From: Thozetella sp. PMI_491
Taxonomy: Eukaryota; Ascomycota; Sordariomycetes; Chaetosphaeriales; Chaetosphaeriaceae
NCBI GenBank assembly: GCA_021432635.1
Contig: MU270046.1
Span: forward strand, 99,913-163,912
DNA: 64,000 nucleotides
Direction: 5' to 3'
In this document: positions 56,019-64,000 of the stretch, piece by piece
Position numbering within the stretch: the stretch's first letter is position 1
Layout: every line of letters begins with the position of its first letter
The notes under the pieces: generated by a model
Databases searched by the model: none
Told to the model about the DNA's origin: nothing
Seen by the model: the letters and a program-made list of their open reading frames with translations, nothing else
Program-made: the position numbers and the translations under genes

Positions 56019-57701
56019 TTACATAATAAAGTAGCTCACAATAGCACTGTTTAGCACAGCGATGCAAGCCATGATCAGCCATGCTAGCCCCGGGAAGTGG
56101 GCTAGGATACCGGCGCGAATCAAAACCCCTCCCAAGATCAACCCGAGAGCTGAGACTGCTGAGTCGCAAGAGTGGGTAATACTATGCACCTTTGCCCGCA
56201 CTGCCGCGTCTTCGCAAGCATCGTTGATCAACAGCAGGGCACTGGGCTGGCATATCGTCCGGCAGGCAACGTGAAGCGCCATGAGAGCAGCCGCGAAGAG
56301 AAGCCGCAAGACATCGCTGCCCGGGGGCTGAGACAGGAGCATGAATCCTAGGTATGCGACGGTGCTGAACGGCAGAAGAAGTTGCAGGCAGTTACGCGAT
56401 CCCGTCGTATCGTGCAGCCGAGGGAAAAGCAGGAGCTGGATAGGAATGCCCAGAAGCGTGACGCCCATGGTCAAAGTTCCTATTTCCTGCACGGAGAACC
56501 CCAGGCCGTGGCCCGGGTTCGCTTCGCCTGCAGCATTGACTCCGTTACCGAGCGGCGCAGGCAGGAATATCGCAATCGCTGTGGCGTATGCTGTAAAATG
56601 TAAGCTCATCACTAGTTTAGCCACCACCCTCCATGCGATAGCCACACTGGATTGGCCAGGTAACGTCGACTCCAACTCTTCCGGGTCGACGGCACCGGTG
56701 AGACCGTCCGTTTCTTTTTCCTCCAAATACGACTCCATGCTTGAATCCCGATACTCCGTGCCGTCCGACCTCGGTAAATCCTGGTCGCTTCCGGTATCTG
56801 TACCGGGTGCCACGAGGCGATAGGAAAAGCGTGGCTTGGGGCGGCCGAACAGAAACGAAAGGACCCGGCCCTTGAGCCAACGCGCTCGAGGCAGCACCAG
56901 CGGGCCGGTAGCGCCTGGGAGTGTCTCTTCCAAATTCACTGCCACCATTATGACGCCAAACGCTACCATAATGGCGTTGACTATCATTGGGAGGGCAAAG
57001 GGCCATCGGTCAACCCAGCTGCACGCTGAGACATTCTCGCCGCAGAGATCTGAGTAATCATCCGCTGGCTTGATGAGAATCCCTGCCAAAAACGGCCCCG
57101 TAATAGAACCGAAAGTGGTACAAAATGGCAAGAGCGAGAATGCCCGGGCGTGGAAGCTATGTTTTGAGTGTTAGGGGGCAAAGAATAAATGTTGGTGACG
57201 GATTGCAAACCTCTTGGTCGGTATGATCTCTGGCACAATCGTCCTTATGACCCCAACATTGCCAGAGGCAATGCCGCCCATCATCTGGAACAACAGAATA
57301 TGGTAGAAGCTTGTTGCAAAGCCAATACCCACGCAGCTAATCCCTGCAATGAACAACCCAGCGACGATGACGCCTTTCCGCCCAATGGAAGGCACCTGAG
57401 ACAGACGGCCCCACACCACAGCCGTGACGCAAGCCCCCATCGAAAAGACGGCACTCAGGAGTCCCGCCTGGAGTGCAATCTCCTTATCGGATAGGCCTCT
57501 GTCGAACGAGGCGAGCTGATAGTACATGTACGAAGAAAATGCTGTCTGCGCCAACGGCTCAGTGAAACGGGCATATAGCAGGATTCCCAGCTGCCCTTTT
57601 CGTGGTATTGTCAGCCATGTAGCGGCTCTCCCGTCCGCGTTGTACTTTGGTTTTTCCGTATCTCGTATCCCTGATCGACTTCTTATTGGTCCGCTCGGCA
57701 T
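56019..57701 (-). CDS. MFS transporter
   Basis: Two exons (57701-57211, 57156-56019; 54-nt intron) give 542 residues. The start is MPSGPIRSRSG; the same frame is open upstream but begins with GTG. First-half helices include ILLYARFTEPLAQTAF, then AVVWGRLSQVPSIGRKGVIV (the A-like loop G-R-x-x-x-x-x-G-R-K), MGGIASGNVGVIRTIVPEI and ARAFSLLPFCTTFGSITGPF. A charged cytosolic loop follows (about 250-310, DGLTGAVDPEELES), and the second half ends in LAWLIMACIAVLNSAIVSYF. About twelve helices are expected. The pattern resembles fungal ZIFL/multidrug-type facilitators that export small compounds or ions. Substrate unknown; the C2H2 regulator lies beyond its start. Confidence 0.88.
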
Positions 57702-58456
57702 TGTGGATATCTCGACCGACACAGCAAGGGCAATGAATCGAAGGGGCCAACTGGTGTGTATACGGTCGCAGGCAATGTGGTGTCGGCGTCACCATTCTAT
57801 GGGCGCAATATTGTATTTAACTCCCACAACGTAGACCGGATTAACTATCTACGCACAGCCGGGAGCCCTCCAGAGAAAGGCATCCGAAACATCCAAAGCG
57901 CTGCGCAGGCACGACGAGTGATAATATTGGCACTGCCGCCTCCTGGTAAAAGGCCAGACATGAAGCAGGCCTGAGAATTTTCCCAGCAATTACCCCGTAC
58001 TGATCAAAGCGTTTTGCATCTATTCATGGCTCTGGGTTGGTGGCCCAAGGTGGCCTAAGGGCCGCCCCGTTACGAAAGGCCCCCAACAAGGCCGGGCCGG
58101 AAGAGGAGCTGCTGCATGGCCTTTGTGGCCTCCCGAAGGATTTCGTTTTCGCTTAAGCCTCCTGACTAAGGGCTCCGGCGTAAGGCTTTCGATTGGTGGT
58201 CTAACCGATGTGATTTGATGGCCTTGCACTGCAGGGCCAAGCAAATAGAACCTAAGTCGGTGCTTGAGAAAGAACCGAATCCGAAGGGATATACAGGTAC
58301 CTAGGCATTTGACACCAATAGACTGGTAAAGAACTTCACGTCGCATTGGCCAAGAAAATATCTGCCTTGGCTCTCCGCAGATTGGCAAGACTATGCGCGA
58401 TGGGCGGAGGGCAGCCTAGCTACCCGGCTTGTTACCATGCCAAAATAGGCAACTCT
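57702..58456. other. Intergenic region
   Basis: 0.75 kb upstream of the MFS gene and downstream of the C2H2 gene; both are on the minus strand. No gene seen. Around 58020-58210 there is a GGCC-rich segment with short self-similar words. Confidence 0.6.
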
Positions 58457-59443: not shown

Positions 59444-60201
59444 AATGGAATTATTGTAAAAGGGAGTCTGTGTAAAGGACTCGAGAGCAGGATGTGAAGT
59501 TGGATGGGACTTCTCTCGTCTACGGTGCCAAAGGCAGGCCGGGTAAGGTAGGTAGATAAAGCCAACGACTCCTTAGGCAGTTATCTACATGAAGTTCAGT
59601 TTGAGTCCGTGGGTAATGTCTAGACATTTGGTCCAATAACCCTTTAGGGTTGTGCAATCCTACGGCCGTCGTGTTTACAATCATTGGAGCATTGAGCTGC
59701 AGACGTAATGGTAGGTAATGGTAAGCTGTCAGCGTGTACTCCAAGATTACACCCCCCCCCCCCCCCCCCCCCCNNNNNNNNNNNNNNNNNNNNNNNNNNN
59801 NNNNNNNNNNNNNNNNNNNNNNNNNNNNNNNNNNNNNNNNNNNNNNNNNNNNNNNNNNNNNNNCCCCCCCCCCACGCCGCCCTCGATTACCGCTTACCAC
59901 CATGTCACTACCCCACTAGAGAGTCACTAGGATTTGGTGGAGTAACCCTGTAGCTCAAGTCGTGCTCTACCCCGCCAGAGGTGCCTATTCGCTTACAGTA
60001 AGGCCCCTGGCCGTGCCCTGAATCCTGGGCACCTCCGCTACCAACAGGTACCAGACGCACCTTAACAGCAGAAGTGCCATGTCCAACATCCACAACTCGA
60101 AAGAATCTTGACGTCTTCGCCATTTACACTCCCTACCGATCAGTCAACGGCAACGAACCCCACTCTTACACTCGACCAGCACCCAAGTTGAGTCAGTCGT
60201 C
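59444..60201. other. Intergenic region with assembly gap
   Basis: Upstream of the C2H2 gene (minus) and of the carboxylesterase (plus). It contains the poly-C/N gap. All open frames through the gap are artefacts. Confidence 0.7.
59752..59873. repeat. Poly-C tract flanking a 90-base assembly gap
   Basis: A run of 22 C (59752-59773), then 90 N (59774-59863), then 10 C (59864-59873). The homopolymer is the probable cause of the gap; its true length is unknown. Confidence 0.97.
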
Positions 60202-62162
60202 ATGTCTTGGGGGGTCGGGTACCAACCAGTCTCCACGAACACATCGGTGGAGGATGATCGCGCCCAAGATCTTGAGAAGTCGGTCGATGACAGGCGAAAA
60301 TCTCGAAGGACTTGTAGTATTTTATCACTTGTTGCAGTTGCCCTCGCATGCTGGGGTCTGCTCGCTTTATGTGTCCGGCTCGACTCTATGAGCGGGAATC
60401 GGCCAGAATTACAGCGGGACCTGCCTTTAGCGACAACAAGAAACGGCACTTATTCCGGAGTTTACGATAGTAGTCATGACCAGTTCCAATTTCTGGGCAT
60501 TCCATATGCAACGCCCCCTGTGGGGGACTTACGATTTCGACCGCCTCAATATATCGACGAGTCCTGGGATGGCATTCGAAGTGCCGACAGTTACGGTCCA
60601 ATGTGCCCTGGTTATTACAGAGTGCGTGTTACAAAAACTGACAATCTGGGAATACTGAAAGCTAATATGAAACACCCCAGGGCCCTGCTATTCACTATGC
60701 CATGAGCGAAGACTGTTTGACCGTCAACGTAGTGGTCCCTTCAGCTCCAGAGATGAAGACACTTCTTCCTGTCGCTGTTTGGTACTATGGTGGCGGTCCC
60801 AAAGGTGGAGCGTCTCGGGATGGTCGCTACAATATGTCTTTTCTCGTCTCTCATGCAACCCAGCACGACATGCCATTTATATCTGTTTCGTTCAATTTTC
60901 GATCCTCAATATGGGGGTTCATCAGGGGAGCAGAAGTACTAGGAACGGGCAACACAAATCTCGGGCTTCGCGATCAAAGATTGGCCCTTCACTGGTTGCA
61001 AGAGAACATCGCGGGGTTCGGTGGCGACCCAAGGAAAGTCACCATCATGGGAGGAAGCAGCGGAGCCGAAAACATCGGCTTTCAACTTACGGCGTATGGC
61101 GGTCGAGACGATGGACTCTTCCGTGCGGCTATTCTTCAAAGTGGGACTGCTATATCTCTTCTAGGGGACACAAGCATCTCAGGCCAGGACAGCTATGACC
61201 AGCTCCTTGCAGCCACATCCTGCAATGATACCGAGAATTCCTTGGACTGCCTACGCCATGTTCCATTCGAGCAGCTTAATGGCGCCTTCGACAATTGGGA
61301 TTCGGCACCTGCAGCCAGCCGATTGGATAAAGTGACCACAAATATGGCCTCGCAATCTGTGGCGCAAATTGACGGAGACTTTATTCGGTCCTTCGGAAGT
61401 GTAGCCATGAGGCAAGGGAACTTTGTTAAAGTTCCGATCATAAATGGAGTGACCTCCAATGAAGGCTTTGCTTTCATCCCAGAAGGACTGGACAGCGCCA
61501 ACGCGACTTTGGACTATCTATATAGTGAGTTGTGTTCTCATTACATCATACTGAACAAGCTAACGGATCTTACAGATTTTGCAAAAGGCTTCCGGCCGTC
61601 TGTCGTTGACAAGCTCTTATCATTCTATCCTGAGCTACCAGACGAGGCGAAACCGCTTGATCCGCCGATCAAAGGGATAAGGAATGCTAGTGGATACGAT
61701 AGGCTCGAGCACGTCTTGGGCGACTTTCAACACAATGCTGCAAAGAGGCTTCAATGCGGAGAATACGCACGGCATACAGCCTGTTACAGCTATCGATTTG
61801 ACGCAGTGGAGTCGCTAGAATCGGGGAACCCTCGTGAAGGCGTTCGCCACGGCGCTGAAATTCCCACAGTCTTCCAAAATTACAACGGAGAGGGATTTTG
61901 GCCCGACCCAAATCCGTTTGAAGGAAGAACTTCAGGGTACTTCGACATGGCCAAGGCGATAGGGCTCATGTGGGCAGGTTTTATTACGCAGCTTGACCCA
62001 AACCATGCTTTTGAAGGTGAGCCCTGGCCGAAATACAATCCGGATGCACCGAGACAGATGGTGTTCAACGAGACTGGCCCTTTCTGGGTAGAGGATGATC
62101 TGTTGCGAAAGGACGCGACAGATTATATATATAATATTATGCAAAGCGTATTGACCAGGTAA
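60202..62162 (+). CDS. Membrane-anchored type-B carboxylesterase
   Basis: Exons 60202-60621, 60681-61524 and 61576-62162 give 616 residues. The N-terminus is long and charged, then a single hydrophobic segment (CSILSLVAVALACWGLLALC, about 38-57) would anchor the protein as type II, with the catalytic part outside the cytosol. Family markers are FLGIPYATPPVGDLRFRPPQ, the EDCLTVNV motif (150-157), the oxyanion-type WYYGGGPKGGA, the nucleophile elbow MGGSSGAENIG with Ser266 (the usual Glu before Ser replaced by Gly), and the His of REGVRHGAEIPTVF. The intron at 61525-61575 is 51 nt, in frame and without stop (GTGAGT, GCTAACGG, TTACAG), so an unspliced read would look like a longer protein. Substrate unknown. 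Confidence 0.88.
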
Positions 62163-62381: not shown

Positions 62382-63329
62382 GGAAAACCAGTTGCCTAGA
62401 AATCACTTCAGGGAGGATGTTTAAATGAAACGTTTCGTTATGAGCGCAACTATCGGCACGCTAATAGGGAGAATTGTAGAGATAATCGTATGACCTAACA
62501 CCAACTCCTCCAGCTGAGATCCCCTTTTCCGCGCGCAAATATTACCACAAGCTGCCAGGTACCTCCTTCTGGTGGCTCGGAAAGTGACCAACACAACCTA
62601 TAGAATTGTAACCAATCCGCCATTTCGATACCTGTACGTCGACATATCCTGCATATAGTGGGCTGTGGCATAGCTAGGATTCTCGTGCTGACAGACTGCT
62701 GGCCTACATGTCTAACATCAAAGCAGAGCTGCCTGCAGTCGTTCCAACATCCGCATAGGGCAGGCAAATGTACGCGCAACTTCTGATTACATAGTGGAGC
62801 GCAAGGCTTTTGATTACGGATTGTGTGTATGCACGATTCTTACTTTTGTGGCTGTAGCATCCCTGTCAGCAGCCTCCTTCCGTGTCATGGCTGGCCTTAT
62901 AGCTGATTGCGGCCTATTTTGACACTATTCCGTCTTCTCATAGGAGCAATCCTAGGTACCTAATCCCCGACCCCCAAAACCTCCAAAGTGGGGGGTTCAA
63001 TTGCCAACCACAGAGCTAACTATATGAATAAGGTAAGTAATCATGGAGTGGTAAGCGAAGGATCGGAGATTACCCCGCTAAAGTGCTACCAATACCTACT
63101 GCATAATCTATCCCAATCGGGATACTATCAGACATCGTGGAGAGCAACGTAGCAAACCTCTCTCTAGACGACCCATTACAGTTAGAATTAGGAAGCCGCT
63201 TATGGCGATGGAGGCTGGCGCCTACGTTAACCGTGTGCAACAAGGTTCACGCAACCAATGGCTGACATACATGCGTATAGCTGCACTTACGGTGGGTCGA
63301 TTCTCTTCCTACTGGCAATGAGGGAATTG

Positions 63330-63440
63330 AAGGCCTATGAAGTGAGGGCCTGTGATGTGAAGGCCTTTGTAGATATCGAAGGCCTCCGAGGTGAAGACCA
63401 ATGAGGCAAGGGCCAGTCAAGTGAGAGCCAATAGAGTGAA
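63330..63440. repeat. Degenerate 15-bp tandem repeat
   Basis: About seven units of the form AGGCCTNNGANGTGA follow each other (for example AGGCCTATGAAGTGA, GGGCCTGTGATGTGA, AGGCCTCCGAGGTGA, GAGCCAATAGAGTGA), one with a 4-bp insertion. The unit is a multiple of three, but no good frame with a start runs through it on the plus strand. It ends 200 bp before the repeat-peptide gene. Confidence 0.65.
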
Positions 63441-63640
63441 GGTCGAAGTTCACGCAGCTGGAGTGGCCGATCGAAAGGTATTAAAGACTTCTTCACCCCT
63501 CCGACTTGAGCAGATTCGAAGCATTGCAGAACATCCTCACTCCTGCATTCAATTGCATCTCTCTCACAACAACAAAAACAACTTCAATCCAATCAGCAAC
63601 CGCCACATCCTCTGCCCATCGAATCTCATCCACCGCAAAC

Positions 63641-64000
63641 ATGAAGCTCTCTGTGCCGACCACCGCGAGCTTCATGTTGCTGGCCGCAACCCACATTCTC
63701 GCCGCACCTTTACTCAGCACTCCAGCGGGAGAAATCGTTCCATATCACAACGAGGCCCGCTCAAACTTGAACGAGCGGGATCCCGAGGGCATCAAGCGCG
63801 ATCCCGAGGGAATCAAGCGCGACCCCGAGGGCATCAAACGCGATCCTGAGGGAATCAAGCGTGACCCGGAGGGCATCAAGCGTGACCCGGAGGGCATCAA
63901 GCGTGATCCTGAGGGCATCAAGCGCGATCCGGAGGGCATCAAGCGCGACCCCGAAGGTATTAAGCGTGACCCTGAGGGCATCAAGCGCGACCCCGAGGGG
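63641..64000 (+). CDS. Secreted Kex2-processed repeat-peptide precursor (candidate RiPP or pheromone-like), partial
   Basis: The frame is open from ATG 63641 to the window end (120 codons, no stop), so the gene is 3'-truncated here. Residues 1-22 form a signal peptide (MKLSVPTTASFMLLAATHIL, then AA). Residues 23-46 are a short leader (STPAGEIVPYHNEARSNLNE). From residue 47 on there are ten perfect consecutive copies of DPEGIKR plus the start of an eleventh. Each copy ends in Lys-Arg, the Kex2 site, so processing would release identical DPEGI-KR units, trimmed to DPEGI by a Kex1-type carboxypeptidase. All differences between copies are synonymous (GAT/GAC, CCC/CCT/CCG, GGC/GGA/GGT, AAG/AAA, CGC/CGT), which points to selection on the peptide. 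The design is that of fungal KEP proteins (alpha-type pheromones, repellents, dikaritin precursors such as ustiloxin). The unit lacks Tyr/Phe/Trp and Cys, so classical ether-cyclised dikaritins and disulfide peptides do not fit. Function unknown. Confidence 0.88.
   Translation, partial: MKLSVPTTASFMLLAATHILAAPLLSTPAGEIVPYHNEARSNLNERDPEGIKRDPEGIKRDPEGIKRDPEGIKRDPEGIKRDPEGIKRDPEGIKRDPEGIKRDPEGIKRDPEGIKRDPEG

Follow-up and report, generated by a model that had tools for sequence, protein, structure and literature searches.

A tandem-repeat gene of Thozetella sp. PMI_491 for a probable peptide precursor that lies, with two similar genes of the genome, beside carboxylesterases of a single clade

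A gene that crosses the end of the DNA stretch analysed here encodes a signal-like N-terminus followed by 45 contiguous heptads, and the copies of its predominant unit, DPEGIKR, differ from one another at third codon positions only. Two similar repeat precursors are encoded elsewhere in the genome, and all three genes are linked to carboxylesterases that form one clade. We read the gene as that of a secreted, multi-copy peptide precursor that would serve as substrate for a small, dedicated set of peptide-maturation genes, comprising the carboxylesterase and a GT25-like enzyme, and we give this reading an even chance of being correct. The stretch, hereafter the window, is 64 kb long and corresponds to C32:99913-163912 in the genome of Thozetella sp. 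PMI_491 (72.3 Mb in 157 contigs; C32 is MU270046.1). Its relevant features, in window coordinates, are these:

60202..62162, plus strand: carboxylesterase-family gene before the precursor (its two frames match PF00135 at E 1.5e-62 and 1.2e-15)
63479..63485, plus strand: TATTAAA, a TATA-like site that precedes the ATG by 162 bp (string match only)
63641..63706, plus strand: signal-peptide-like N-terminus MKLSVPTTASFMLLAATHILAA (translation, hydropathy)
63707..63778, plus strand: spacer or leader PLLSTPAGEIVPYHNEARSNLNER, ending at the first R-DP junction, with a single Arg and no KR (translation)
63779..64000, plus strand: repeat array, ten complete DPEGIKR units and a partial one, running on to equivalent 64738

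The window holds the first 360 bases of the precursor gene (63641-64000), which encode MKLSVPTTASFMLLAATHILAAPLLSTPAGEIVPYHNEARSNLNER and then ten complete DPEGIKR units before the window end cuts the array. The gene is complete in the genome at C32:163553-164650, equivalent to window positions 63641-64738 on the plus strand, where a single unbroken frame of 365 amino acids consists of the signal-like N-terminus, a 24-residue spacer, the 45 heptads, DPEA and a TAA stop. An earlier note, made from the window, had described ten perfect heptads that differ only synonymously. The full gene bears this out and extends it to 42 copies; the stop or frameshift just past the window that the note had named as grounds for abandoning its reading does not occur, the frame staying open to the TAA at equivalent 64738. 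The three remaining heptads are an amino-acid variant, DPELLER, and all of them lie past the window end.

The 42 DPEGIKR units occur in 23 different DNA versions, with a mean of 2.75 nucleotide differences per pair, yet no unit departs from the others at any of the 14 first and second codon positions. Variation that is confined in this way to third positions suggests that selection holds the peptide sequence while the DNA drifts. The array is thus neither a product of chance nor a fresh array of identical DNA, and a low-complexity repeat is excluded on the same grounds. Beyond residue 50 the translation lacks F, W, Y, H and C altogether. The signal-like character of the N-terminus is judged from its hydropathy (maximum 12-residue KD value 1.99) and from an A-x-A-like end. 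Pfam searches with the repeat proteins returned nothing, or short, mostly sub-threshold matches to unrelated families. Upstream of the TATA-like site, at 63324-63366, there are imperfect 15-bp tandem repeats (GAAGTGAAGGCCTAT), and by eye similar motifs run on to about 63440.

The precursor contains 42 KR dipeptides, one after each of the 42 DPEGI sequences, and no RR or KK. Cutting at KR predicts 43 fragments, of which 39 are DPEGI, one is the leader joined to DPEGI, one is DPELLERDPEGI, one is DPELLERDPELLERDPEGI and one is DPEA; 39 of these are therefore five residues long, and only two internal fragments reach eight. We envisage that the precursor would enter the ER and be secreted, that Kex2 would cut after each KR in the Golgi, and that a Kex1-type carboxypeptidase would trim the KR, so that each precursor would yield 39 free DPEGI peptides and two longer fragments containing DPELLER. 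A Kex2-type P-domain has one match in the genome, at C4:515486, read through three stop codons (perhaps an intron). An XP or XA dipeptide after a Kex2 site has been described, in the portions of the papers available, as a signature removed by Ste13-type dipeptidyl aminopeptidases (Le Marquer 2019, PMC6339444; Vogt et al., PMC9769878). The residues that follow each KR in the array are D-P, an XP dipeptide, and the end product could therefore be EGI rather than DPEGI. Judged from the protein sequence, release of peptides from this precursor is likely, and the released peptides would have an extracellular, non-mating role.

Two published surveys of Kex2-processed repeat proteins (KEPs) provide definitions with which the gene may be compared. 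As given in the available part of its text, the survey of Le Marquer 2019 (PMC6339444) calls for a secretion signal and at least three similar fragments between KR or RR sites that make up at least 15% of the protein length; here there are 39 identical DPEGI fragments, and 45 x 7 of the 365 residues are repeat. The corresponding part of Umemura 2020 (PMC7329392) calls for at least three repeats of eight residues or more between Kex2 (dibasic) sites, and this minimum excludes a precursor with five residues between sites. The assignment is thus partly supported, by one of two published definitions, and we file the gene as a KEP in the sense of Le Marquer and not as a dikaritin. The likeness to KEPs lies in the signal-like N-terminus and in the many near-identical units separated by KR. 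With 42 copies, the array exceeds the second highest repeat count that the accessible text of PMC6339444 gives for its set, 38, but not the maximum of 129.

The genome encodes three similar precursors, with units DPEGIKR (C32), DPDGVKAR (C67) and DPDGAVVI[G/E]R (C17). The two found outside C32 are:

C67:344594-345187: 16 DPDG units, 13 of them DPDGVKAR, with EMLEAR/EIFEAR-type pieces interspersed
C17:948297-948887: first NPDGAVIAER, then 14 DPDGAVV units, 13 of them ending in Arg

Common to all three are an Arg before DP[D/E]G, a hydrophobic residue or Ala after it, and, by hydropathy, a hydrophobic N-terminus. The repeat period is 7 residues in C32, 8 with inserts in C67 and 10 in C17, and in C17 the variation is confined to the two residues before Arg. 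Neither C67 nor C17 contains KR, RR or KK. Kex2 sites are consequently not a feature common to the group, which weakens Kex2 release as a general mechanism; in these two precursors another protease might act at the single Arg, or there might be no cleavage. For C32 itself, the KR-separated identical units make probable the release of many DPEGI copies per precursor that the earlier note had proposed, with EGI as a possible end product. By the survey definitions, in so far as the available text sets them out, C67 and C17 fall outside the dibasic rule of both surveys and all three precursors outside that of Umemura. The absence of dibasic sites from two similar precursors, together with the linkage to a carboxylesterase clade, sets this group apart from KEPs.

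In a genome search with the C32 query (limit E 0.001), C67 was found at 8e-12 and C18 more weakly at 1.5e-5, and C17 was not found. The C67 query found C32 at 8e-20 and C17 at 1e-10, with weak further matches on C3, C45 and C4 (E 0.003 to 0.16), and the C17 query, with E up to 10, listed neither C32 nor C67. Another weak match lies on C24. Direct pairwise BLAST gave E-values, inflated by the repeats, of 2e-32 for C32-C67, 7e-26 for C17-C67 and 3e-16 for C32-C17, and with low-complexity masking the C17-C32 comparison gave no match at 1e-4. On account of this inflation, 200 order-shuffled DPEGIKR units were compared as a control. The real score was reached by one of the 200 against C67 and by one of the 200 against C17. 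It was the same shuffle in both cases, PDGIKRE, which itself has DG and IKR in order.

The C18 match merits separate treatment:

C18:637550-638044 (L014:4550-5044), minus strand: repeat precursor built of (GET/DV)EPFTGIKR units, whose core contains Phe, with KR at 13 sites

In BLAST against the C32 precursor it gave E-values of 2e-15 and 1e-14 in two runs, and none of the 200 shuffled units reached its score, the best coming close (67.8 versus 70.9 bits). It has no match to C67 (E 0.86) and a weak one to C17 (0.002), it lacks RDP[DE]G, and there is no carboxylesterase among the frames of its locus scanned with Pfam. We do not count it in the group; the GIKR that it has in common with C32 may reflect convergence or distant kinship. 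A HET-domain gene lies nearby, and the nearest listed UstYa match on C18 is about 32 kb away.

The carboxylesterase before the C32 precursor (modelled from the first Met of its frame; intron borders not defined) has a hydrophobic anchor near its N-terminus and then a COesterase domain in which the Ser, Glu and His motifs read GGSSGA, TSNEG and RHGAE. PF00135 matches the C32 and C67 enzymes, and the C17 enzyme aligns with both. A motif scan found Ser, Glu and His in the C32 and C17 enzymes and missed Ser and His in C67, where the alignment shows GGSSGS, SNEG and RHAAD. A hydrophobic stretch near the N-terminus is present in all three precursor-linked enzymes, and the gap between carboxylesterase and precursor is 1.5 kb in C32, 0.7 kb in C67 and 2.4 kb in C17. 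A genome search with the C32 enzyme, in which 86 of 134 candidates were scored, gave at least 92 match pieces. Among the listed matches outside C32, the best piece was that of C17 (324 bits), and C67 ranked third among the loci by its best single piece (266 bits) and second on the sum of its two pieces. A tree was built from 20 carboxylesterase rows, comprising the window and 19 fetched loci, and in it the three copies that neighbour precursors fall into one clade with 100/100 support. When 10 kb of each of the 19 fetched loci was scanned for repeats in frames of 60 residues or more, DP[DE]G repeats were found at C17 and C67 only, the 17 other loci having no such frame. The same scan turned up a different, Tyr-containing KEP at L020 and a simple five-residue repeat at L028.

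A second gene, resembling glycosyltransferases, adjoins two of the three precursors:

C32:165531-166427, minus strand: GT25-like gene flanking the C32 precursor opposite the carboxylesterase
C17:949974-950840: GT25-like gene adjoining the C17 precursor

The two copies are 62% identical and are the best two of seven genome match pieces (E up to 0.001). PF01755 matches them with 15.4 bits, E 0.018 (C32) and 21.0 bits, E 3.3e-4 (C17), below the curated cut-off of 24. Procollagen galactosyltransferase 1 accounts for all four of the matches found in the PDB with E up to 1 (E 0.006-0.008). The likeness to the procollagen galactosyltransferase/GT25 family is a local similarity around the EDD motif, and the difference is that the proteins remain below the Pfam cut-off. 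A hydrophobic stretch lies near the N-terminus of the C32 copy by hydropathy, and a similar one is seen by eye in that of C17. The gene order is esterase, precursor, GT in C32 and esterase, GT, precursor in C17. When the proteins of the neighbourhoods were compared (C32 39 kb, C17 10 kb, C67 30 kb, C18 10 kb), the C32, C17 and C67 stretches had in common, beyond the precursor, esterase and GT families and antisense frames, one 48-residue match; common genes farther out would be missed, since the C17 stretch covered 10 kb only. A carboxylesterase accompanies the precursor in three of three cases, and a GT25-like gene in two of three. This linkage may derive from one segment that was duplicated and later rearranged, in which case the three loci are not independent.

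That the carboxylesterase and the GT25-like enzyme belong to the pathway is plausible. Both neighbours would be membrane-anchored, the one a carboxylesterase-fold hydrolase and the other a GT25-like enzyme, and if both faced the lumen they could act on the precursor or on the released peptides in the same compartment. Similar modules would exist twice more in the genome, DPDGV-KAR with an esterase and DPDGAVVI-[G/E]R with an esterase and a GT. The C32 and C17 units have in common D, P, an acidic residue, G and R, which would make the acidic side chain or the chain ends natural targets for the enzymes. Among the observations that speak against the gene-set reading, DPEGIKR offers neither Ser nor Thr, to which O-glycans are usually attached; the C17 repeats have no Lys; and C67 has no GT25-like match, either in the genome search (E up to 0.001) or in the neighbourhood comparison. 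A bolder form of the proposal, which we consider unlikely to hold, is a UstYa-independent ribosomal peptide pathway in which the code would be R-DP[D/E]G-hydrophobic, Kex2 sites would be optional and the acidic core would be modified by lumenal GT25-like and carboxylesterase-fold enzymes. For example, a sugar might be placed on the Asp or Glu carboxyl and then be exchanged, or used for ring closure, by the serine hydrolase.

The gene set suggested by the three precursors and the carboxylesterase would differ from those of known cyclic fungal peptides. Searches of the literature with the repeat strings of the group found no relevant paper, and survey supplements could still list a relative; one for KEP, carboxylesterase and glycosyltransferase together gave none relevant by title among those listed. 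The main texts of the lichen RiPP paper PMC12048977 and of Umemura (PMC7329392) contain no mention of "esterase". One fungal RiPP paper, in the part available, mentions that a Trichoderma cluster includes a glycosyltransferase of family 1, and it regards KEPs as unmodified. The C32/C67/C17 group would escape the filters of published surveys, as their available text describes them, through the dibasic sites that both demand and the repeats of at least eight residues that one demands, and RiPP mining leans on UstYa neighbours. If the carboxylesterase clade were a reliable marker, it would offer a new route to hidden fungal peptide genes and a concrete enzyme pair for peptide modification.

A rival account is that C32 encodes an ordinary Kex2-processed repeat protein. 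The DPEGI that it releases, or EGI after Ste13 trimming, would then be a linear peptide without modification that acts as a short signal or in an ecological role, and the neighbouring enzymes would be unrelated to it. IKR after all 42 DPEG motifs and the Ste13 signature after KR are what this account would predict. Linear, minimally modified KEP peptides have, moreover, been detected in mushrooms (Vogt et al., PMC9769878), and 78% of the KEPs in the Umemura survey (PMC7329392) have no DUF3328 neighbour, to judge from the portions available of both papers. It leaves unexplained, however, why the same carboxylesterase clade lies beside every precursor and a GT beside two of them, and why KR is absent from two, and we regard it as a serious though somewhat unlikely alternative. 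We think it quite improbable that the product is instead a secreted repeat protein, uncleaved or partly cleaved, that forms a component of the wall or surface, decorated by the GT and altered at its surface by the esterase. The retention of R-DP[DE]G where dibasic sites are not retained, and the linkage of a glycosyltransferase to two of three precursors, would fit such a protein. On the other hand, the KR after each DPEGI in C32 is ideal for cleavage, and a fixed repeat structure could hardly tolerate periods of 7, 8 with inserts, and 10.

Dikaritins (ustiloxin, phomopsin, asperipin) resemble the C32 precursor, which we still read as the substrate of a maturation gene set, in their repeats and KR sites and in the possible tailoring enzymes that neighbouring genes encode. 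They differ from it in that C32 lacks a near listed UstYa/DUF3328 gene and an aromatic core and has carboxylesterase and GT25-like genes instead. With 150 of 203 candidates scored, the genome shows at least 149 UstYa match pieces, so that enzymes encoded elsewhere, acting in trans, are conceivable for a cyclic peptide of this type. The nearest listed UstYa match on C32 is nevertheless at 240846, 76 kb from the precursor; on C67 the distance is 79 kb, and on C17 there is none among the matches listed. Two KEPs with Tyr in their units provide a comparison:

C84:106272-106586 (L036:1441-1827), minus strand: KEP built of EPGTYGVDTFGAIKR-type units, with a UstYa match at a distance of 1.1 kb
C2:1597001-1597210 (L020:1-210), minus strand: edge of a KEP with AGIDYIKEGKR units

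The C84 locus is a probable dikaritin-type cluster. The C2 gene lies about 1 kb from a strong UstYa match and about 5 kb from another carboxylesterase. These were chance encounters and not the outcome of a systematic survey, and they indicate that such clusters are visible with the same search. A dikaritin identity for C32 is therefore very improbable: the suspicion of the earlier note that the core is unlike that of a normal dikaritin is supported, and a RiPP of the dikaritin kind is not, the nearest listed UstYa match being 76 kb away.

Least probable is a mating alpha-pheromone precursor. The architecture of KR followed by a Ste13-like XP dipeptide is that of ascomycete alpha-pheromone precursors, but C32 lacks the WC..GQ.C-type core of alpha-pheromones, and the genome has a better candidate:

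C21:364918-365463, minus strand: four in-frame WCQIRGQSCW copies

From its sequence this locus is likely to be the alpha-pheromone gene of the fungus, and its peptide presumably resembles the pheromones of other Sordariomycetes.

As partners for the precursor, the earlier note had proposed UstYa-like oxidases, a tyrosinase, a methyltransferase or a transporter. Transporters are indeed present, whereas UstYa, tyrosinase and methyltransferase domains are absent from the 28 C32 frames scanned with Pfam, which are a part of the longer frames. An MFS transporter gene lies about 6 kb to the left of the precursor (window 56022-57788), and an ABC-type domain lies beyond it on that side. To the right of the precursor, at about 26 kb, there is an OPT oligopeptide transporter (L011:7665-9302). 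Nothing in the stretches of C67 and C17 that were compared matches the MFS gene, the OPT gene lying outside that comparison. Between a C2H2-like gene and the carboxylesterase the window contains a run of 90 N (59774-59863). The next gene beyond the C32 GT, at C32:167366-168210 (L009:4366-5210), has a partial TNT-domain match (E 2.8e-11). At L010:3094-4272 a Diels-Alderase-like protein (DA_N + AsqO_C) is encoded, with a Zn2Cys6 regulator and an RTA1-like protein close by, and these are possible metabolite genes.
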